In this document: positions 2,592 to 40,926 of the stretch, piece by piece
Numbering within the stretch: position 1 is the first letter of the stretch
How the letters are laid out: each line of letters starts with the position of its first letter
DNA from: Labilibaculum sp.
Lineage (GTDB): Bacteria; Bacteroidota; Bacteroidia; Bacteroidales; Marinifilaceae
Length of the DNA: 62,537 bases
Assembly (NCBI GenBank): GCA_016760525.1
Contig: JAESUW010000021.1
Coordinates: 1-62,537 of the forward strand
Direction: 5' to 3'
Position numbers and translations under genes: made by a program
The notes under the pieces: generated by a model
Seen by the model: the letters and a program-made list of their open reading frames with translations, nothing else
What the model was told of the DNA's origin: nothing
Databases searched by the model: none

Positions 2592-3620
2592 ATGTTACAC
2601 GGACACGGAGATGATGGTTACCAATATAAACAAGCAATTGCTGCCAATTTTAGCAGCAATGTTTGGTTTGGAGGTAAATCTGAGAATCTTAAACAACATT
2701 TATTTAAGAACTGGGATAAAATTCATTCCTATCCGGAAGCTTCTGCTGAAAGCCTTGTAAATGCTTTGGCTAATGATTTGAGTATAAATAGCAATCAAAT
2801 TATCGCAACAAATGGCGCCACGGAAGCCTTTTACCTTATTGCACAATGTTTTTCACAATCAAGATCAAGCATTGTAATCCCTACCTTCTCCGAGTATGAG
2901 GATGCATGCAAAGTCAATAAACACGAGCTATTCTTTATTAATTGGACTGAACTCAATAGGAATACTATTTTTGAAGAAGGCCTGATTTGGATTTGCAATC
3001 CTAATAATCCAAATGGAAATATTCTAAATCTGGAGGAAATGGAGGAAATGTTAAAATTGAATCCAAAATCTATTTTTGTTATTGATGAAGCTTATATCGA
3101 TTTTACTGATGAAGTTGTTTCATGTATTGATTTACTTGATAAATACCAAAATTTAATTTTAGTAAAATCACTAACCAAAAACTTTTCAATTCCCGGCCTG
3201 AGATTGGGATATTTAATTTCAAACAAGGCATTGGTACAGAATATTCAATTCTACAAGGCTCCCTGGACGGTAAATTCACTGGCAATTGAGGCTGGAAAGT
3301 TCCTGTTGGCAAATAAAATGGATTTCTTACCTCCAGTAAATTACTATAAATCAACAACTAAAAAACTCATAGGAAATCTAAAGAAAATTCCTGGCTTACA
3401 AATTCATCCTTCAAAAACTTCTTTCTTTTTAGTTGAACTAGAAAAATCAACTGCTTTTGAGCTGAAAAAACACTTAATTTCTAATTTTGGGATATTGATT
3501 CGTGATGCAGCTAATTTTCGAGGATTAAATTCTTCCTTTTTCAGACTCGCGACTCAAACCGATGAAAAAAATCAATTATTAATCGACGCATTAATTCAAT
3601 GGAGCAAATTGAACTCATAA
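2592..3620 (+). CDS. cobD: Threonine-phosphate decarboxylase-type PLP enzyme (CobD, aminopropanol arm of cobamides)
   Basis: A fold-type I PLP aminotransferase of 342 residues in the HisC/CobD group. In Salmonella nomenclature CobD decarboxylates L-threonine O-3-phosphate to (R)-1-amino-2-propanol phosphate, the linker of the cobamide nucleotide loop. Visible are the N-terminal HGHGDDGY typical of CobD, the TNGATEAFY cofactor site, CNPNNPNG near 135, DEAYIDF near 165, the PLP Schiff-base lysine K196 in SLTKNFSIPG, and RLGY. On sequence alone it could be histidinol-phosphate aminotransferase. The following cbiB, which overlaps it by 22 bases, and the rest of the operon decide for CobD. It is the first gene after the two operator-like boxes. 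Confidence 0.85.
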   Translation: MLHGHGDDGYQYKQAIAANFSSNVWFGGKSENLKQHLFKNWDKIHSYPEASAESLVNALANDLSINSNQIIATNGATEAFYLIAQCFSQSRSSIVIPTFSEYEDACKVNKHELFFINWTELNRNTIFEEGLIWICNPNNPNGNILNLEEMEEMLKLNPKSIFVIDEAYIDFTDEVVSCIDLLDKYQNLILVKSLTKNFSIPGLRLGYLISNKALVQNIQFYKAPWTVNSLAIEAGKFLLANKMDFLPPVNYYKSTTKKLIGNLKKIPGLQIHPSKTSFFLVELEKSTAFELKKHLISNFGILIRDAANFRGLNSSFFRLATQTDEKNQLLIDALIQWSKLNS

Positions 3621-4546
3621 TCCTCCCTCTTGTTATAGGATACATTTTGGATCTCTTTTTTGGTGATCCTAGAAAATTGCCACACCCAATCGTTTTATTT
3701 GGTAACACAATTTCTTTTTTCACTAAATATCTGAATAAAGGAAAATATCAGTTGCTTAAAGGAGCTTTGATGGCTTTTGGATTAGTAACAAGTGTCTACT
3801 TTATTTTTTTGTACATAAGCTCCATTACTTTACTTTGGCATAATTCTGTGTATGTGGTATTTACTTCAATCATGGTTTTTTACGGATTAGCGAACAAAAG
3901 TCTGCTTCAAGAAGGATCCGAAGTCTTTAAACACCTTAATGAAAAAGGATTGGAAGCAGGTCGAAAAAGATTGTCGTGGATTGTAGGACGAGACACATCG
4001 AAACTGTCGGAACAAGAAATACGTTTGGCTGTATTGGAAACTTTATCAGAGAATTTATCGGACGGTGTTGTTGCTCCACTTTTTTACTATGCTATTGCCG
4101 GCGTTCCAGGAATGATGTGTTATAAAATGATTAACACTATGGATTCCATGATTGGATATAAAAATGAAAAGTACATTTTGTTTGGACGCGTTGCTGCTCG
4201 TATAGATGATGTTGCAAATTTCATTCCTGCACGTTTGACCGCCTTGCTTATGGTATTACTAAATTTTAGTTCTAAAGGCTTTGTTTATATATTTAAATAT
4301 GGCAATGCTCATCTAAGCCCAAATGCCGGTTACCCGGAATCAGCTCTGGCAGGAATCTTAAATTGCCAATTTGGTGGACCTCATGATTATGGCGGGGAAA
4401 GTATTCATAAACCATTTATTGGAGTTAATAACAGACTAATACTAAACGAAGACATCAATAAACTTTTTCACATCAACCATTCGGTGTGTTTTGCAACTAT
4501 TCTTCTAATTATAGCTATCTATTTTCCATATGGAATACTGTTATAA
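3599..4546 (+). CDS. cbiB: Adenosylcobinamide-phosphate synthase (CbiB)
   Basis: Membrane enzyme that attaches aminopropanol phosphate to adenosylcobyric acid. The 315-residue protein has the family hallmarks LDLFFGDPRKLPHP near the N-terminus, GRDTSKL, ETLSENLSDGVVAPLFYY, NTMDSMIGY and the RIDDVANFIPARLTA segment, with several hydrophobic helices between them and a C-terminal helix. The start lies 22 bases inside the preceding cobD, an overlap that suggests translational coupling of the two enzymes that make and use aminopropanol phosphate. The next gene, cobU, starts about 100 bases downstream. Confidence 0.95.
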   Translation: MEQIELIILPLVIGYILDLFFGDPRKLPHPIVLFGNTISFFTKYLNKGKYQLLKGALMAFGLVTSVYFIFLYISSITLLWHNSVYVVFTSIMVFYGLANKSLLQEGSEVFKHLNEKGLEAGRKRLSWIVGRDTSKLSEQEIRLAVLETLSENLSDGVVAPLFYYAIAGVPGMMCYKMINTMDSMIGYKNEKYILFGRVAARIDDVANFIPARLTALLMVLLNFSSKGFVYIFKYGNAHLSPNAGYPESALAGILNCQFGGPHDYGGESIHKPFIGVNNRLILNEDINKLFHINHSVCFATILLIIAIYFPYGILL

Positions 4547-4645
4547 AAATGAATGAATTTATTCCTGCTGGAATCTTTAATTTGTAACTTCACACTTTCA
4601 AGATTACTGATCAATAAAGGTATATTGATCTTAAAAGAAGTTAGA

Positions 4646-5158
4646 ATGATACATTTAATAACGGGAGGACAACGTTCCGGAAAAAGTATATTTGCAGAAA
4701 ATTTAGCACTATGCCTAAGCGATCAGCCTGTATATTTGGCAACATCTCGAATTTGGGATGAAAGTCATCGAAAACGAATTGAAACACACAAACAACGGCG
4801 TGGAGATCAATGGACTACCATTGAGGAAGAAAAGTTTTTAAGCCAGCATGATTTTTCGGGAAAAGTAGTTCTTTTGGATTGTATCACATTGTGGATGAAC
4901 AACTTCTTTTTTGATAATAAAGAGGATGATAAAAAATCATTAAACGAAGCGACTCAAGAATTAGAAAAGCTTTTTACACAAAATTGCGACTGGATAATCG
5001 TTACCAATGAATTGGGATTAGGAGGACATCCGGGAAATAAAATGGCAATGAGATTCAATGATCTGCAAGGGGATATTAATCAATACATTGCAAAAAAAGC
5101 AGATCGTGTTACACTAATTATATCTGGCTTACCACTTGAAATAAAAAATACCTTATAG
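4646..5158 (+). CDS. cobU: Bifunctional adenosylcobinamide kinase / adenosylcobinamide-phosphate guanylyltransferase (CobU)
   Basis: CobU phosphorylates adenosylcobinamide and then transfers GMP to it, making the activated AdoCbi-GDP. The P-loop GGQRSGKS comes a few residues after the start; further motifs are YLATSRIWDES, RIETHKQRRG with the guanylylated His expected in HKQRR, LLDCITLWMNN, and TNELGLGGHPGN near the end. The reading frame opens upstream at 4553, but I chose the ATG at 4646. It puts the P-loop at the family position, gives 170 residues and is preceded by a purine-rich stretch. Confidence 0.93.
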   Translation: MIHLITGGQRSGKSIFAENLALCLSDQPVYLATSRIWDESHRKRIETHKQRRGDQWTTIEEEKFLSQHDFSGKVVLLDCITLWMNNFFFDNKEDDKKSLNEATQELEKLFTQNCDWIIVTNELGLGGHPGNKMAMRFNDLQGDINQYIAKKADRVTLIISGLPLEIKNTL

Positions 5159-5179: not shown

Positions 5180-6319
5180 ATGACTAAATCACTTAGTTTT
5201 CTTTTTTCACTACTTATTGTTTTAATTACTGTACAGAGCTGTAGAAAAGTAGAAAAGCAGCATACTTCAAATAAAATTAAGGTTGGTGTTTTCGATAAAA
5301 ATGGAGACAGTCCATGGTGTATTATCGATGCTGTTGAAGCACTCAAAATTGATCCGTCCATCGATTGTGAAATAATACGTACAAGTCAAATCGTATCTGA
5401 TGAAATAAATGAATTTGATGCAATTGTTTTTCCTGGAGGAAGTGGCAGAAGCGAAACTCAAAGTTTGGGAGAAACAGGAATGGATAAAGTTGTACGGCTG
5501 GTTAATGAAAAAGGAATAGCCGTAATTGGAATTTGTGCAGGAGCATATATTATGACTGAAACTCCTGATTATCCTAGTTTAAATTTGAGTGGTTTTAAAG
5601 CCATTGATATTGAGCATGATAAAAGAGGATGTGGTTTAGCTGAATTTTCATTAAGTGAAAAGGGAAAAGAGATTTTTCCTGAGTTAAAAGATCGAAAAAT
5701 ATCATTTTGCCAATATTACGAAGGTCCGGTTTTAGTTCCTGCTAAAAATAGTAAAGGAATTGAATTGGCAAGTATGCTTTCTGATGTTCATACAGTTGAA
5801 GGTAGTCCTGCAAATATGACCAACAACAAACCATTTATCGTAGTTGCTTCTGTGGGAAAAGGAAAGGTGGCCTCATTTGTTGGTCACCCTGAATGTACGC
5901 CAGGCATGAGATGGATGTTACCAAGAATTGTTCGTTGGGCAACTAATAATGAAATGATTAAGTATTCGGCAAATGTAGTTCGCCCTGATTTCTTTAAGCA
6001 AGAAATTATTTACACAAAAGAAATACAAGCCTTGCAAGCAAAATATCATGAAATGCTATCTGGTACAAAAGAAGAAAAGTTGATCGCAATTGATAAAGTG
6101 ATTGAATTGGCTTGTTGGTCTTCAAAGAAATGGATTCCGGGAATGCTGAGAGACAAAGATTCCGATGTTAGAGCTAAAGCGTCAAAAGCAATTGTACAAA
6201 TTGAAAGAACTGATGCAATTCCTGATCTGGAGTCAGCAATACACAATGAGAAAAATTCAGAATGCAAAGAAATAATGCGACACAATCTTAGCATTTTAAA
6301 AATCATGATCAATAAATAG
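5180..6319 (+). CDS. Lipoprotein with a BPL_N-type glutamine-amidotransferase-like domain and a HEAT-like tail, inside the cobamide operon
   Basis: A 379-residue exported protein. Its lipoprotein signal ends at C21 (VQSC). Residues from about 34 to 260 form a class I glutamine-amidotransferase-like fold: IVFPGGSGR near 84, a nucleophile elbow GICAGAY with Cys119, and a later GHPE motif near residue 235. The pattern resembles the N-terminal domain of biotin-protein ligase (BPL_N). The last 100 residues contain ACWSSKKWIPGMLRDKDSD and AIPDLESAIHNEKN, which look like HEAT-type helical repeats. It lies between cobU and the first cobT on the same strand with short gaps (21 and 29 bases). Its role is unknown to me. 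A periplasmic cobamide handling, trimming or precursor-salvage step is a guess from position only. Confidence 0.7.
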   Translation: MTKSLSFLFSLLIVLITVQSCRKVEKQHTSNKIKVGVFDKNGDSPWCIIDAVEALKIDPSIDCEIIRTSQIVSDEINEFDAIVFPGGSGRSETQSLGETGMDKVVRLVNEKGIAVIGICAGAYIMTETPDYPSLNLSGFKAIDIEHDKRGCGLAEFSLSEKGKEIFPELKDRKISFCQYYEGPVLVPAKNSKGIELASMLSDVHTVEGSPANMTNNKPFIVVASVGKGKVASFVGHPECTPGMRWMLPRIVRWATNNEMIKYSANVVRPDFFKQEIIYTKEIQALQAKYHEMLSGTKEEKLIAIDKVIELACWSSKKWIPGMLRDKDSDVRAKASKAIVQIERTDAIPDLESAIHNEKNSECKEIMRHNLSILKIMINK

Positions 6320-6348
6320 TACGATTTGAAATCTTTAAAATTAGTGTG

Positions 6349-7401
6349 ATGGAATTTAAGATATCCTCCGTATCCACATCCTTGGATCAGAAGTTGTTGA
6401 ATAAAATCAATGGAAAAACAAAGCCCCTTGGTTCCTTGGGAATGCTTGAAAAAATTGCATTTCAAATTGGAAAAATACAAAACAGTTTATCTCCGAAAAT
6501 TATGAATCCTACTGTTGTCGTATTTGCCGGAGATCATGGAATCACAGATGATGGAGTGAGTTTTTATCCAAAATCTGTTAGCTACGAAATGCTTTATAAT
6601 TACATGCAGGGAGGTGCTGCTATAAATGTATTTTCGCGCCAACATAATATTGATTTTAAAGTTGTTGACGCAGGTATTGATCATGATTTTGATCCAGCAT
6701 TAAATATCATCAATAAAAAAATTGCTTACGGTACTAAGAACTACAGATTCGAACCCGCAATGACAAAAAATCAATGTCTTGAAGGATTTAAGCGTGGTGC
6801 TGATGTAATTGAGGGAATTCATAAAGAAGGATGCAACTTTATTACTTTTGGCGAAAAAGGAATTGGAAATACATCTTCGGCGGCATTAATACTAAGTCTT
6901 TTAACAGATATCAAGCTTGAAGAGTGTGTAGGAAAAGGAACAGGACTTGATAAAGAAGGCGTAAAATCTAAATTTGACTTGTTAAATGAAGCATTGCAGA
7001 AATACGATGGCGGTAACAATCCTATTGATGTACTGACTCAATTTGGTGGATTTGAGGTGGTTATGATTGTTGGTGCTGTATTAAAAGCAGCAGAATTAAG
7101 AATGACGATGTTAATTGATGGATTTATCATTACTTCAGCATTATTGGCGGCATCAAAAATAGATCCTAAAGTGTTGGGCTACTGTTTATTTGCGCATAAA
7201 TCAAATGAGCAAGCACATATTAAAATGCTAAATCATTTAAATGCTGAACCAATTTTAGATATTGGCATGCGATTGGGCGAAGGAACAGGTGCGATGGTTT
7301 GTTATCCGCTTGTGAAAAGTGCTGTGCAATTTATTAACGAAATGGCTTCATTTCAGGAAGCTGGAGTAAGCGAATCAGAAGAAGTAGAAACAATCAGTTA
7401 A
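6349..7401 (+). CDS. cobT: CobT-like phosphoribosyltransferase, divergent first copy
   Basis: Homologue of nicotinate-nucleotide:dimethylbenzimidazole phosphoribosyltransferase, which activates the lower-ligand base of cobamides. The protein is 350 residues from the ATG at 6349; a GTG sits directly before it at 6346. It keeps KPLGSLG, FAGDHG, GGAAINVF, GIGNTSSAA, CVGKGTG and the C-terminal MRLGEGTGA with the presumed catalytic Glu. It departs from the usual family pattern where the base binds: YPKSVSYEM instead of YPQEVTxQM, and GEKGIGNT instead of GEMGIGNT. The next gene is a second, more canonical copy. The pair could form a heterodimer like ArsAB, or this copy could activate a different base. 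Confidence 0.88.
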   Translation: MEFKISSVSTSLDQKLLNKINGKTKPLGSLGMLEKIAFQIGKIQNSLSPKIMNPTVVVFAGDHGITDDGVSFYPKSVSYEMLYNYMQGGAAINVFSRQHNIDFKVVDAGIDHDFDPALNIINKKIAYGTKNYRFEPAMTKNQCLEGFKRGADVIEGIHKEGCNFITFGEKGIGNTSSAALILSLLTDIKLEECVGKGTGLDKEGVKSKFDLLNEALQKYDGGNNPIDVLTQFGGFEVVMIVGAVLKAAELRMTMLIDGFIITSALLAASKIDPKVLGYCLFAHKSNEQAHIKMLNHLNAEPILDIGMRLGEGTGAMVCYPLVKSAVQFINEMASFQEAGVSESEEVETIS

Positions 7402-7438
7402 GTGTTTTATATTTAATTTTCTATTAAAAATCTTATCA

Positions 7439-8488
7439 ATGAATTTCAATATAAGTAAACCCAATAACGAGCTAACAGAGCAACTTCAACATAAAATTGA
7501 TTTTAAAACCAAACCGATTGGATCTTTAGGTATTTTAGAACAATTAGCCTTGAAAATTGGATGTATTCAAAACACTCTGAAACCAGAATTAAAACAACCA
7601 ATTATCATGGTGTTTGCTGCAGATCATGGAATTGCTCTTGATGGAGTAAGTCCTTACCCACAAGAAGTTACTTGGCAAATGGTTGCCAATTTCATTAATG
7701 GTGGAGCTGCAATTAATGTATTTGGCCGTCAGAATGGAATCGATATTCGGATAATTGATGCCGGTGTAAATTTTGATTTTGACAAAAGCTCGGGAGTAAT
7801 TAATGCAAAAGTTGATTACGGAACAAAGAGTTATTTGAATGAATCAGCAATGACTGTTGAACAATTTGAAAAAGCAATTAAGCGAGGTGCGGATCTTTGC
7901 GATAAAATGCATCGTGAAGGCTCAAACATTATTGGTTTTGGTGAAATGGGAATTGGCAATACTTCATCGGCTGCTATTTTATTACATATTTTAGCAGGTG
8001 TAGATTTAAAAGAATGTGTTGGCCGTGGTACCGGATGGGATGATGAAGGTCTGAAAAAGAAATATAAAATACTGAAAAAGGCCGTTGATAATTACAATGG
8101 AGATAATTCAGTTGAGAACATTCTAACTTATTTTGGTGGCTTCGAAATTGTAATGATTGTTGGCGCAATGATGAAAGCCGCTGAATTGAAAATGGTAATT
8201 ATGGTCGATGGTTTTATCATTAGCTCCGCACTTTTAGCTGCATCAAAAATAAATGCTAACATTCTTGAATATTGTATATTTACACACAAATCGAATGAGA
8301 ACGGTCACAAACACATGCTTAAACATCTTAAAGCAGAGCCAATTCTAGATTTAGGAATGAGATTAGGTGAGGGTACAGGAGCAGCTATTGCATATCCAAT
8401 TATTGAATCTGCTGTCAATTTTTTGAATCAAATGGCTAGTTTCGAGGATGCTGGTGTGAGTAACAGCGATCAAATTACAGAAGTTTAA
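7439..8488 (+). CDS. cobT: CobT, nicotinate-nucleotide:dimethylbenzimidazole phosphoribosyltransferase, canonical second copy
   Basis: The second tandem cobT product, 349 residues, is clearly homologous to the first along its whole length. It has the standard motifs KPIGSLG, FAADHGIALDGVSPYPQEV, GGAAINVFGRQ, FGEMGIGNTSSAA, CVGRGTG and MRLGEGTGAA with the catalytic Glu. YPQEVTWQM and GEMGIGNT match ordinary CobT, so this copy is likely to make alpha-ribazole phosphate or a close analogue. It starts 37 bases after the first copy and its stop codon touches the ATG of cobS. Such duplication with divergence in one copy is known for the ArsA/ArsB pair, which attaches phenolic bases. Confidence 0.92.
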   Translation: MNFNISKPNNELTEQLQHKIDFKTKPIGSLGILEQLALKIGCIQNTLKPELKQPIIMVFAADHGIALDGVSPYPQEVTWQMVANFINGGAAINVFGRQNGIDIRIIDAGVNFDFDKSSGVINAKVDYGTKSYLNESAMTVEQFEKAIKRGADLCDKMHREGSNIIGFGEMGIGNTSSAAILLHILAGVDLKECVGRGTGWDDEGLKKKYKILKKAVDNYNGDNSVENILTYFGGFEIVMIVGAMMKAAELKMVIMVDGFIISSALLAASKINANILEYCIFTHKSNENGHKHMLKHLKAEPILDLGMRLGEGTGAAIAYPIIESAVNFLNQMASFEDAGVSNSDQITEV

Positions 8489-9250
8489 ATGAGAAAAGAA
8501 ATAGACATATTTTTTACAGGACTGTCTTTTTTTACAAGAATTCCATTTCCTAAATGGGCTCGGTTTAAAAAGGAATATCAGCATGAAGCCATAAAATATT
8601 TCCCTATTGCCGGGGTAATTATTGGAGGACTAGCAGGTTTAGTTTTTTATCTGGCTAATTTGGTCTTTCCTTTTAATTTATCGGTAATGCTAAGCATGGG
8701 GTTCACCGTTTTATTTACCGGAGCCTTACACGAAGATGGTTTTATGGATGTTTGCGATGGTTTTGGCGGTGGCTGGACACGTGAACGAATCCTTGAAATA
8801 ATGAAGGATTCATTAATAGGAGCATTCGGTGTTACTGGTATTGTTTTCCTTGTGATAACAAAGTTCTTTTGTCAATATTCTATATCAGCGGTTCAATTGC
8901 CACTGGTTTTAATTGCAGCACACTCAGTAACAAGAATGTTTGCTGCTACTTTGGTGAATTCGCACCAATATGCACGAACCGAAAATTCTAAAGCAAAGGA
9001 TTATTCTCAAAAACTTTCAATGGGAAACCTGATATTCACAATTATTACTGGAATATTACCATTAGCTTTATTGGGGAATATCAAATTTTTCCTAATTCTT
9101 ATTCCTGTTTTTTTGTGTAAAGTATTATTGGGCAGATATTATAACAAATGGATAGGTGGATTTACCGGCGACTGTATTGGAGCCACACAGCAAGTTTGTG
9201 AAATCGTATTCTATTTATCCTATATGGTAATTATTAATAAAGTATTGTAA
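8489..9250 (+). CDS. cobS: Adenosylcobinamide-GDP ribazoletransferase (cobalamin synthase, CobS)
   Basis: Integral membrane enzyme that joins AdoCbi-GDP to alpha-ribazole phosphate to give the complete cobamide. The 253-residue protein shows FFTRIPFP near the N-terminus, the Asp-rich active-site segment HEDGFMDVCDGFGGGWTRE, RILEIMKDSLIGAFG, a HSVTRMFAA segment, and GGFTGDCIGATQQ near the C-terminus, with about six hydrophobic helices. The ATG follows the cobT stop codon with no gap, and cobC begins 2 bases after the cobS stop, so the three are surely co-translated from one message. Confidence 0.95.
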   Translation: MRKEIDIFFTGLSFFTRIPFPKWARFKKEYQHEAIKYFPIAGVIIGGLAGLVFYLANLVFPFNLSVMLSMGFTVLFTGALHEDGFMDVCDGFGGGWTRERILEIMKDSLIGAFGVTGIVFLVITKFFCQYSISAVQLPLVLIAAHSVTRMFAATLVNSHQYARTENSKAKDYSQKLSMGNLIFTIITGILPLALLGNIKFFLILIPVFLCKVLLGRYYNKWIGGFTGDCIGATQQVCEIVFYLSYMVIINKVL

Positions 9251-9251
9251 G

Positions 9252-9788
9252 ATGGAAATATATTTAATCAGACATACAAAAGTAGATATTGAACAAGGCA
9301 TTTGCTATGGACAAAAAGATGTTGATTTGGCTAAAAGTTATCCTGAAGAATTGAATGCTGTAAAAGAAAAACTGCAAGGTATTGATTTTGACTTGGTTTT
9401 GTCTAGTCCCTTGAGCAGAGCAAAGAAGTTAGCAAGTGATATTTTTGGCGATCAGGTAGAAGAGGATAAACGCTTAATGGAATTAAATTTTGGTGATTGG
9501 GAAGGGAAAGTTTGGGACGAAATCAAAGATCCCTTATTTCCAGCTTGGATGGAAGATTTTGTAAACAAAAAATGTTCAAATGGAGAATCATTTGTTATGC
9601 TTCGTGATAGAGTTCTGGAGTTTTGGAACGAAATAAAATCAAAAGATTGCAAAAAAATTGCAATTTTCACTCATGGAGGTGTAATTCGCACAATAAAAGC
9701 AATCGAAAAAAACATCAAGCTCGAAGATTCGTTCAAAGAGCCAACAACCGATTTTGGAGAGCTTACCATACTACCAATTACGCAGTAA
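9252..9788 (+). CDS. cobC: Alpha-ribazole phosphatase-type histidine phosphatase (CobC)
   Basis: A 178-residue member of the histidine phosphatase (phosphoglycerate-mutase-like) superfamily. The N-terminal IRHTKV carries the phospho-accepting His in an RHT rather than RHG context, followed by GICYGQKDVDL, a combination common in CobC. LSSPLSRAKKLA supplies a further Arg, GDWEGKVWDE follows, and FTHGGVIR holds the second catalytic His. CobC removes the phosphate from alpha-ribazole phosphate or from cobalamin phosphate, the last step of loop assembly. It begins 2 bases after cobS and is the last gene of the operon, with a hairpin terminator close behind. Confidence 0.88.
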   Translation: MEIYLIRHTKVDIEQGICYGQKDVDLAKSYPEELNAVKEKLQGIDFDLVLSSPLSRAKKLASDIFGDQVEEDKRLMELNFGDWEGKVWDEIKDPLFPAWMEDFVNKKCSNGESFVMLRDRVLEFWNEIKSKDCKKIAIFTHGGVIRTIKAIEKNIKLEDSFKEPTTDFGELTILPITQ

Positions 9789-16694: not shown

Positions 16695-17861
16695 ATGTTA
16701 AATATTGCACTTTTTGGCCCTCCTGGAGCAGGTAAAGGAACTCAATCAAAGATGCTTGTCAAAAAATATAATCTAGCTTATATATCAACAGGAGATATTC
16801 TAAGAAGTGAGATTACTGAAGGAACAGAGCTTGGTTTACAAGCAAAAGACATCATAAAAAGAGGAGGACTTGTTCCCGACGAAATTATTGTTCAAATCAT
16901 AGAAGAACGTATCCAAACCAATACTGAGGTAAATGGTTTTCTTTTTGATGGATTTCCCAGAACAACAGTACAAGCCTATATTCTGGAAGGTCTGCTCTTA
17001 AAGATGAATACAAAACTGGACTGTATGCTAAGTTTAGAAGTGCCTTCAGATCAATTGCGCAATCGTTTGTTGGATCGAGCAAAGAAAGAGAATAGAGCCG
17101 ATGATACAGAGGAAGTAATTAGTGTTCGATTAAAAGAGTATGATACTAAAACAGCTCCCGTAGCTAATTTCTACAAGGAAAAAGAAATATACCATGGTAT
17201 TGATGGTTTGGGTGGTATTGATCAAATTTTTGAAAGGTTGACTTCAATCGTCGATCAGACACTTCAAAAATCATGGATTAATTTGGTTTTATTAGGACCT
17301 CCAGGGTCTGGTAAAGGAACGCAAGGACGAAGATTGGCTGAACAATTCAACTTAGTGTACATTTCCACAGGTCACCTAATGCGTCAAGAAATCAAAAAAG
17401 ATACAGAGATGGGGCAAAATGCGAAAACCTATATTGAAAAAGGAGATATTGTACCAGATGAAATTGCCATTCGATTAATTGAAAGACAAATTCGCAAACA
17501 TCCGGATGCTAATGGATTTATTTTCAAAGGATTTCCTCGAACTATTGTTCAGGCATACATACTAGATGGTCTGTTAAGAAAACTTGGATCTACCGTTACA
17601 TCATCAATCAACTTGAATGTTTCTACTCTTGAATCAATTAAACGATTAACATCAAGAGGGAAAACTCAAGGAAAAAGGCTTTATGATAATACAGACATCA
17701 TTATTCATCGTTTGGAGCAATTTGAAAAAAGAAGTGTTAAAGTTAGTACCTATTATTCCAAGCAGAACAAATTTGAAATGGTTGACGGGATCGGCAATCA
17801 AGACGATATATTCAACCGACTTACAGATGTAGTCAATAAATCGTTCAAAAAAATTAGATAA
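16695..17861 (+). CDS. Tandem adenylate-kinase-like protein (two fused NMP-kinase domains)
   Basis: A 388-residue protein made of two adenylate-kinase-like halves, about 1-190 and 195-388, where adenylate kinase is normally one domain of about 190 residues. Half one looks active: P-loop GPPGAGKGTQ, STGDILR, DGFPRT with Asp85, and LLDRAKKENRADDTEEV. Half two keeps the P-loop (GPPGSGKGTQ, from 201) and the lid arginines. It has STGH in place of STGD near 225 and KGFPRT in place of DGFPRT near 278, so the Asp that helps hold Mg2+ is lost. The second half may be regulatory or pseudo-enzymatic. It is monocistronic, with a terminator behind it. Whether the genome has a separate ordinary adk cannot be seen here. 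Confidence 0.85.
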   Translation: MLNIALFGPPGAGKGTQSKMLVKKYNLAYISTGDILRSEITEGTELGLQAKDIIKRGGLVPDEIIVQIIEERIQTNTEVNGFLFDGFPRTTVQAYILEGLLLKMNTKLDCMLSLEVPSDQLRNRLLDRAKKENRADDTEEVISVRLKEYDTKTAPVANFYKEKEIYHGIDGLGGIDQIFERLTSIVDQTLQKSWINLVLLGPPGSGKGTQGRRLAEQFNLVYISTGHLMRQEIKKDTEMGQNAKTYIEKGDIVPDEIAIRLIERQIRKHPDANGFIFKGFPRTIVQAYILDGLLRKLGSTVTSSINLNVSTLESIKRLTSRGKTQGKRLYDNTDIIIHRLEQFEKRSVKVSTYYSKQNKFEMVDGIGNQDDIFNRLTDVVNKSFKKIR

Positions 17862-39117: not shown

Positions 39118-40926
39118 ATGAATCAAAAACAATCCTATTATACTGACCGAATAAATGCATTTAATAAGCAAATCTCTGATCTGCAAAAGCAAAATAGAAA
39201 CCTTTCTTTCTTACGTTTGATAAGCGCGATTGGAGCATTCGTATTATTTTATGTCATTCTTTCCTATTCTCTATTAATTGCGAGCACTGTAGCTATTATA
39301 TTAGTCTGTTTGCTAATTTATTTTGTAAGAAAATACAAGCAAAACAGTAAAAATATAAAAAGGTGGCAAGCTTTAGTTAAAATTAACGAAAATGAAATTC
39401 ATTGCTTAAAGACAAGGCACAGTGATCTTTTTTACAATGGTGAAGAATATTTAAAGCCGAATCATTCTTATTCATCAGACTTAGATGTATTTGGCAAGCA
39501 TTCCCTTTTTCAGTTAATTAACCGAAGTGTAACAAAAACAGGAAATGATACTCTCGCTAGCTGGCTTTCTAAGCCATCGTTAAATAAAGAGATTAGCAAA
39601 AGACAAGAGGCTGTTAAGGAATTGGCGAAAAAAATTGATTGGAGACAGAATATCATCCAATATGGTTTTACAAGTAAACTAAAATATGACGATCCTAAGT
39701 TTGTGATTGAATGGGGTAAAAATCCCTCTCCTTTTCATGGAAAAAGAGTATTACAAATTGCTGTTACAATCATGCCTTTTCTTTCATTGGCAGCCTTGAT
39801 ATATTCTTTTATCGGCTCGCAAGCCCCTATTACAATTATGATACTGGCTAATATTGGAATACATTATTTCAATAGCAAAAAAGTTAGTCTGGAACATGAA
39901 CAAACTTCAAAAAGAGGGGAAATGCTCAAAACATACTCCTACATCATTGAACAGTTCGAAAAAGAGGATTGGAAATCTGAAAAATTGAATGATCTTAAAA
40001 ATGCATTGGCAAGTAATGACAAACTTACTTCAAAGAAAATAAACCAACTGACCAATTTAATAGAATTACTGGATCAGCGCTTAAACCTTGTGGTTCAATT
40101 CCTTTTCAACCTTTTGTTTTTCTACGAATTACACATTTTGTTTCGCATTGACAGGTGGAAGCAAAAATACGGCAATGACATTGAAAAATGGTTTGATGCA
40201 ATCAGTGAAATTGAAGCTATATCCAGCTTATCAAACTTAAGTTTTAATCATGAAGATTGGTCTTTTCCAAATATTTCAGATAAACATTTTGAATTGTCTT
40301 TGAAAGAAGCTGGCCATCCGATGATTGATGAAAAAACAAGGGTAAATAATGACTATCAGCTGAACGGACCAGGAACTGTGCATATTGTTACAGGATCGAA
40401 TATGGCCGGAAAAAGTACTTTCCTGCGAACAGTTGGGGTAAATATAGTGATGGCTTTAGCGGGCGCTCCTGTTTGTGCTCAGGAAATGACGGTTTCGAAT
40501 GTAGAAATTAATACATCCATGAGAATTAAAGATTCTATAGAAGAGAATGAATCTTCCTTTTATGCCGAACTAAAAAGAATTCAGCAGCTTATTAAAAAGG
40601 TGAATAATAAAGAGAAGACATTACTGCTGTTGGATGAAATTCTGAGAGGTACCAACTCTAAAGATAAACATACCGGATCGCGTGCATTAATTAAGCAATT
40701 GGTAAAACATGATGCTGTGGCGATGGTAGCAACACATGATTTGGAGTTATCGATATTGGAAGAAGAATTGCCTGGACAGGTTGAGAATCGCTTTTTTGAT
40801 ATTAAAATTGATGGTGATCAACTTTATTTCGACTACAAAGTGCAAAAAGGATTTTGCAAAACCTTTAACGCTCCAATTTTAATGCGGAAAATGGGAATTG
40901 ATTTGGAAATATTGAATGAAGCTTAA
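39118..40926 (+). CDS. Membrane-anchored MutS-like ATPase
   Basis: A 602-residue protein with MutS domains III and V but no mismatch-recognition domain I. Two hydrophobic pairs, at about residues 35-70 and 215-245, look like membrane segments. The ATPase part has the Walker A GSNMAGKST, a signature-like SSFYAELKRIQQL, the Walker B LLLLDEILRGTNSKD, and the D-loop/His segment VATHDLELSILEEE. Unlike MutS2 it has no Smr nuclease domain. Small MutS relatives with transmembrane parts occur in Bacteroidetes and have no defined role; canonical mismatch repair is unlikely. It is monocistronic. Confidence 0.85.
   Translation: MNQKQSYYTDRINAFNKQISDLQKQNRNLSFLRLISAIGAFVLFYVILSYSLLIASTVAIILVCLLIYFVRKYKQNSKNIKRWQALVKINENEIHCLKTRHSDLFYNGEEYLKPNHSYSSDLDVFGKHSLFQLINRSVTKTGNDTLASWLSKPSLNKEISKRQEAVKELAKKIDWRQNIIQYGFTSKLKYDDPKFVIEWGKNPSPFHGKRVLQIAVTIMPFLSLAALIYSFIGSQAPITIMILANIGIHYFNSKKVSLEHEQTSKRGEMLKTYSYIIEQFEKEDWKSEKLNDLKNALASNDKLTSKKINQLTNLIELLDQRLNLVVQFLFNLLFFYELHILFRIDRWKQKYGNDIEKWFDAISEIEAISSLSNLSFNHEDWSFPNISDKHFELSLKEAGHPMIDEKTRVNNDYQLNGPGTVHIVTGSNMAGKSTFLRTVGVNIVMALAGAPVCAQEMTVSNVEINTSMRIKDSIEENESSFYAELKRIQQLIKKVNNKEKTLLLLDEILRGTNSKDKHTGSRALIKQLVKHDAVAMVATHDLELSILEEELPGQVENRFFDIKIDGDQLYFDYKVQKGFCKTFNAPILMRKMGIDLEILNEA

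Follow-up and report, generated by a model that had tools for sequence, protein, structure and literature searches.

A tandem pair of CobT homologues in Marinifilaceae, the first with a lysine at a base-pocket position

A Labilibaculum-type genome encodes two full-length homologues of CobT in tandem within an operon for late cobamide synthesis, and the changes fixed in the first copy, relative to the second and to other CobT proteins, lie mostly in segments around the base pocket. We give an even chance to the reading in which the second copy would be an ordinary CobT and the first a competent paralogue with an altered base specificity, perhaps forming with its neighbor a heterodimer that shares sites. 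The window, by which we mean the whole 62,537-nucleotide stretch analyzed, is contig C83 of a 3.5-Mb metagenome-assembled genome (MAG) that is 63.2% complete. The diverged paralogue, cobT1, lies at 6346..7401 on the forward strand (351 aa from a GTG start, or 350 aa from the ATG at 6349), and the canonical-type copy, cobT2, at 7439..8488 on the same strand (349 aa), with ORF calling leaving 37 bases between the stop of one and the start of the other. Both pass the cut-off of 319.3 bits for the CobT equivalog family TIGR03160 (cobT_DBIPRT; 422.5 bits for cobT1 and 444.6 for cobT2) and span the 329 positions of PF02277 almost entirely (2-329 and 1-329, respectively), and they are 55.9% identical to each other over 349 aa. 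An initial annotation of the stretch had described two full-length CobT homologues 37 bases apart, and this description holds. Chance or misassembly as the source of the pair is ruled out, as further Marinifilaceae genomes carry the identical pair in the identical order.

The alignment places the base-pocket segment of cobT1, SFYPKSVSYEM, at 6559..6591 (+), equivalent to residues 78-88 of Salmonella CobT, and that of cobT2, SPYPQEVTWQM, at 7649..7681 (+). The cobT1 segment has Tyr at 80 and Met at 88, and Ser replaces both Glu83 and Thr85. At the position of Salmonella Leu175, cobT1 has a Lys codon (6856..6858, +; GE-K-GIGNT) and cobT2 a Met codon (7946..7948, +), while the equivalents of the catalytic Glu317 are found at 7279..7281 (+) in cobT1 and 8369..8371 (+) in cobT2 (role from the available text of PMC9561151). 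The motifs quoted in the initial annotation (YPKSVSYEM and GEKGIGNT in cobT1, YPQEVTWQM and GEMGIGNT in cobT2, LGEGTGA in both) can all be read in this alignment. The residue following the Glu174 equivalent is Lys in 22/22 cobT1 rows, a fragment from genome G036 included, and Met in 22/22 cobT2 rows; the 52 other rows have Met (46) or Leu (6), E. coli CobT has Leu, and Thermus CobT, ArsA and ArsB have Met. Met was also present in all 30 of the best-scoring further CobT proteins, drawn from the 125 CobT-bearing genomes of the phylum sample and all belonging to one family (f136). A DNA search for the pattern GEKGx[GA]N[ST] matched 2/395 phylum genomes, namely that of the window and G600; the G600 match was rejected as a lysine-bearing CobT since it meets a stop within 20 codons, is unlike CobT, and lies on a contig other than that of the real CobT, and a stray match was to be expected given that the reversed control pattern matched four of the genomes listed.

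Seven columns that are conserved in cobT2 and the other proteins carry a change fixed in cobT1 (E. coli CobT positions 58, 83, 85, 92, 176, 296, and 325, where 176 corresponds to Salmonella 175). Six of the 28 eligible columns inside four base-pocket and active-site segments are changed in this way vs. one of 80 outside them (Fisher p 0.0011, for segments drawn after the motifs had been seen), and the control count for changes fixed in cobT2 gave 0/20 inside and 1/76 outside. The divergence of the first copy, as initially described, is thus borne out, and the concentration of its fixed differences in base-pocket segments points first of all to a changed lower-ligand specificity. Two of the replacements, Glu83 to Ser and Met175 to Lys, alter charge and would render the cobT1 site more positive. 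Of the 42 columns invariant elsewhere, 39 are retained in all 21 intact cobT1 rows, and the equivalents of Glu317, the general base, and Glu174, which binds ribose, are invariant in both alignments (A1 and A2), cobT1 included.

Single-chain AlphaFold models of the two proteins have a mean pLDDT of 94.2 (cobT1) and 94.1 (cobT2). The cobT1 model, the one of the two that was compared with the PDB, resembles the CobT structures of Thermus, Salmonella, and Yersinia most closely (TM to query 0.88-0.92), followed by ArsA (0.87) and ArsB (0.83-0.84). Both chains of Salmonella CobT contribute to its base pocket, with Glu317 acting as the base and Glu174 binding the 2'-OH of the ribose (PMC9561151, available text). 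Positions 80, 88, and 175 have been engineered by others as base-pocket positions, as judged from the titles of PDB 4kqj, a CobT S80Y/Q88M/L175M variant with p-cresol, and 4kqk, the same variant. At these three positions cobT2 carries the engineered triad, while cobT1 differs from it in having Tyr/Met/Lys, a combination absent from all other rows here. According to the accessible part of PMC4657239, which cites Crofts 2013, the substitutions S80F and Q88M each lower the use of adenine by CobT, and Q88M increases that of DMB. Because both cobT1 and cobT2 have Tyr80 and Met88, adenine is unlikely to be the base of either.

Among 56 Marinifilaceae genomes, CobT is present in 44, half of which (22/44) have the pair and half (22/44) a single copy. 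The pair is found in six genera (8/9 genomes of g1, 5/5 of g2, 1/1 of g10, 5/5 of g11, 1/1 of g12, and 2/2 of g14), within which no genome has a single CobT copy; in one pair genome (G003) the copies sit at the ends of two contigs and their adjacency is inferred. The ninth g1 genome (G032), 99% complete, is without CobT and CobS and has CbiC and CbiZ, its late operon being lost or absent from the assembly. Across 393 genomes of the order, 63 encode CobT, and two copies occur beyond the window's genome in five (G084, G119, G186, G187, and G430), in none of which they are adjacent. Within a phylum sample of 395 genomes, 125 of them with CobT, two further genomes had two matches each (G614 and G701), and these appear to be parts of genes that are broken or truncated. 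A cobT1 query against 84,980 named species genomes, a scan sensitive to close relatives only, returned nine loci, of which six are from Labilibaculum; the remaining three, 49-52% identical, have Met at the 175 equivalent. The cobT1 proteins of L. euxinus, L. manganireducens, and Labilibaculum sp. K2S are 88-89% identical to that of the window. We found no account of a Marinifilaceae cobT pair, or of a CobT with Lys175, in the available text of open PMC papers. Tandem cobT genes have been described in 27 species, nearly all of them Negativicutes (PMC6461909, available part).

The operon around the pair runs on the forward strand from a CobC/CobD-like aminotransferase (2592..3620; TIGR01140 256.6 bits, under the cut-off of 290.55) through cbiB, for adenosylcobinamide-phosphate synthase (3599..4546; TIGR00380 228.6, cut-off 165.9), cobU, for adenosylcobinamide kinase/guanylyltransferase (4553..5158; PF02283, with NF004469 at 158.6, just under its cut-off of 161), a gene for a BPL_N-like plus HEAT-repeat protein (5180..6319; PF09825, with PF13646 under its cut-off), cobT1 and cobT2 to cobS, for adenosylcobinamide-GDP ribazoletransferase (8489..9250; TIGR00317 119.9, cut-off 110, and NF001277 275.8, cut-off 273), and cobC, for alpha-ribazole phosphatase (9252..9788; TIGR03162 171.4, cut-off 162.9). 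The cob neighbors and their order are identical in one genome from each of the five other pair genera (L104-L108), and the BPL_N/HEAT gene also lies inside the operon in each of these. This gene is non-obligate in the operon, since tblastn gave no match to it in the cobU-cobT1 interval of four Labilibaculum loci (L074, L075, L077, and L078). The HEAT repeats of its product are weak, and the N-terminus reads as lipoprotein-like. No RNA control element was matched by Rfam at gathering score within the window.

The corrin-ring synthesis marker CbiC was found in 22/22 pair genomes, 16/22 single-copy genomes, and 1/12 without CobT, and according to the available portions of PMC9765461 and PMC12908670, part of the Marinifilaceae encodes cobamide synthesis. 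CbiZ, which initiates cobamide remodelling in R. sphaeroides (PMC7733943, accessible text), occurs in 21/22 pair genomes, the exception being the incomplete genome of the window, in 0/22 single-copy genomes and in 1/12 without CobT. This association is nearly complete but tracks one genus group and may reflect a single event, so that it argues weakly for a functional link. None of the 56 genomes has BluB over the cut-off of 150 bits (51/56 have sub-threshold matches, the best at 81 bits), a threshold passed by 3/14 control genomes. The BzaD/E family was likewise over its cut-off in 0/56, with weak TIGR04385 matches in 26/56, and BzaA/B/F-type (ThiC-like) proteins in 0 of the 12 genomes searched for them, in both cases with cut-offs that no control genome passes. 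A ThiC-like gene in a Labilibaculum genome (G027; TIGR04386 550 bits, cut-off 700) was rejected as a sign of Bza-type base synthesis and read as the ThiC of thiamin synthesis; by their translations it lies between ThiE-like and ThiD-like ORFs with a Thi4-like one before, and the same gene is present in G032 and G033. As these searches yielded no base-synthesis gene above cut-off, the cells probably import the lower-ligand base or produce it by an unrecognized route. Organohalide respiration does not offer a general reason for the pair, as PF13486 was found in 4/56 genomes, all of them pair genomes (4/22), although in the available text of PMC12908670 reductive dehalogenases (RDases) in Marinifilum and Ancylomarina genomes are commoner than was found here outside the genus of the window.

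The initial annotation read the pair as resembling ArsAB. The ArsAB of Sporomusa ovata (PDB 4hdk and other entries) does share with cobT1 and cobT2 the tandem arrangement of two CobT homologues, and the Tyr/Met/Met triad of cobT2 is also that of ArsA. This triad is non-diagnostic for ArsAB, however, because Thermus CobT has it too. A tree of 98 rows was built from 21 cobT1, 21 cobT2, and 52 other proteins (22 from single-copy Marinifilaceae, 27 from the order, and L080-L082) together with E. coli CobT, Thermus CobT, ArsA, and ArsB, leaving out the G036 fragments and 12 identical duplicates. In it, cobT1 forms a clade supported at 100/100 with a stem of 0.55, cobT2 one at 99/97 with a short stem of 0.15, and the two are sister clades with moderate support (88/76), while ArsA and ArsB join one another (100/85) away from both. 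Topologies constrained to unite cobT1 with ArsB (p-AU 5.7e-9), or all four proteins (p-AU 5.35e-9), were rejected, although the reference rows in the tree and in these tests lie on long branches. ArsB is without the GNT and GxGTG loops, which cobT1 and cobT2 both retain, and cobT1 has Lys where ArsB has Met. Judged by descent and by this loop loss, the pair falls outside ArsAB, and a local duplication unrelated to ArsAB is its most likely origin. The tandem pair and the diverged first copy of the earlier description stand, and kinship with ArsAB is unsupported.

Compared with the CobT family proper (TIGR03160, PF02277; Salmonella, Thermus), the two proteins are alike in matching the family over its full length, in the fold predicted for them, in both catalytic Glu residues and the NaMN loops, and in late-operon position, and differ in forming two adjacent paralogues rather than one and in the Lys at 175 of cobT1, where all other CobT rows examined have Met or Leu. 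Two seemingly redundant CobT enzymes have been described in Propionibacterium acnes and Moorella thermoacetica (PMC4657239); the likeness, by description only, is that of two CobT proteins per genome, and the available text mentions neither a tandem pair nor a pocket lysine.

A resemblance to ArsAB could nevertheless have arisen by convergence, with the two proteins forming an obligate heterodimer in which cobT1 would mainly shape the base pocket in the active site of cobT2, possibly for phenolic bases. Consistent with this, each of the 22 pair genomes has both copies and no genome of the pair genera has a lone one, the base pocket of Salmonella CobT is made by both chains (PMC9561151, available part), and cobT2 shares its triad with ArsA and with the CobT mutant bound to p-cresol. 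Yet cobT1 retains its own NaMN loops and both Glu residues, features superfluous in a partner whose role is structural alone, and this, with the occurrence of the triad in Thermus CobT and the absence of kinship between cobT1 and ArsB, leaves an obligate heterodimer possible but doubtful.

It is unlikely that cobT1 is instead an NaMN-binding subunit with a regulatory role or low activity, or that its function is being lost. The Gly after the catalytic Glu is replaced by Ala in 9/21 intact cobT1 rows, a possible sign of weakened catalysis or some relaxation in those proteins (the cobT1 of the window keeps Gly), the lysine could block a hydrophobic pocket, and in G036 (G036:C47, L045) both tandem copies are frame-broken. 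The breakage of both copies may, however, be an assembly fault instead of recent decay, and the catalytic Glu residues are invariant. Purifying selection on cobT1 is also close to that on cobT2, with median dN/dS of 0.066 and 0.056 (range 0.024-0.133 each), as estimated from the 42/171 ortholog pairs with usable dS among 19 loci, excluding the window's own copies, at a median dS near 1.1 that is close to saturation. Median dN is 0.065 for cobT1 vs. 0.047 for cobT2, so that the cobT1 protein evolves slightly faster. From the dN/dS medians, cobT1 is not decaying, and degeneration was rejected as a general reading; the degenerate divergent copy in close relatives, which the initial annotation had named as counting against its proposal, was encountered in G036 alone. 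Finally, a redundant cobT1 that uses the same base and is retained for dosage or different expression would fit two proteins of one family in one operon, both above the CobT equivalog cut-off, but is very unlikely in view of the asymmetric stems and of the fixed pocket changes, a charged residue in 22/22 rows among them.

The favored reading, of a competent cobT1 with altered base specificity, would begin with the tandem duplication of one CobT gene in the ancestor of the marine Marinifilaceae. Thereafter cobT2 would have remained an ordinary NaMN:base phosphoribosyltransferase with a hydrophobic base pocket of the Tyr80/Met88/Met175 type, and cobT1 would have retained its catalytic and NaMN-binding machinery while its base pocket was remodelled through Lys175, Ser83, Ser85, and Tyr92. 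With the machinery kept and the pocket remodelled, cobT1 is most likely active with a preference for another base, plausibly one whose distal edge is anionic or accepts hydrogen bonds; its activity, base, and partnership we infer from sequence. Since the base pocket of Salmonella CobT uses both subunits, mixed dimers of cobT1 and cobT2 would by analogy be possible. Together the two enzymes would broaden, or choose among, the lower ligands that their common CobS attaches, and this choice of ligand would act in cobamide synthesis, salvage, and CbiZ-type remodelling. More speculatively, and rather improbably, cobT1 might activate a base class new to cobamides, with an anionic or strongly hydrogen-bond-accepting group pairing with the pocket lysine; if so, a cobamide of marine Marinifilaceae would carry a lower ligand not yet described, with Lys175 as its genomic marker.

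These distinctions bear on how cobamide types are predicted from genomes. A survey of 11,000 species labelled adjacent cobT homologues as putative arsAB, and hence as predicted makers of phenolyl cobamides (PMC6461909, available text), and cobT1 and cobT2 fall under its operational rule of two adjacent cobT-type genes. Because the pair is a separate duplication on the tree and is without the loop losses of ArsB, the adjacency rule would mispredict here unless function has converged. Should cobT1 have a base of its own, Lys175 would be a readable marker of cobamide type in the Marinifilaceae, which are reported to predominate in deep-sea incubations (PMC9765461, in the part available), and the pair would show specificity evolving naturally at a position known from engineering.

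Elsewhere in the window, a 388-aa ORF at 16695-17861 (+) contains two adenylate kinase stretches (about residues 3-188, and from 195 on) and apparently unites two adenylate kinases in a single chain. A 602-aa ORF at 39118-40926 (+) has a MutS match confined to its C-terminal part and a below-cut-off match, at 99 of 300 bits, to KamC, the lysine 5,6-aminomutase reactivase.
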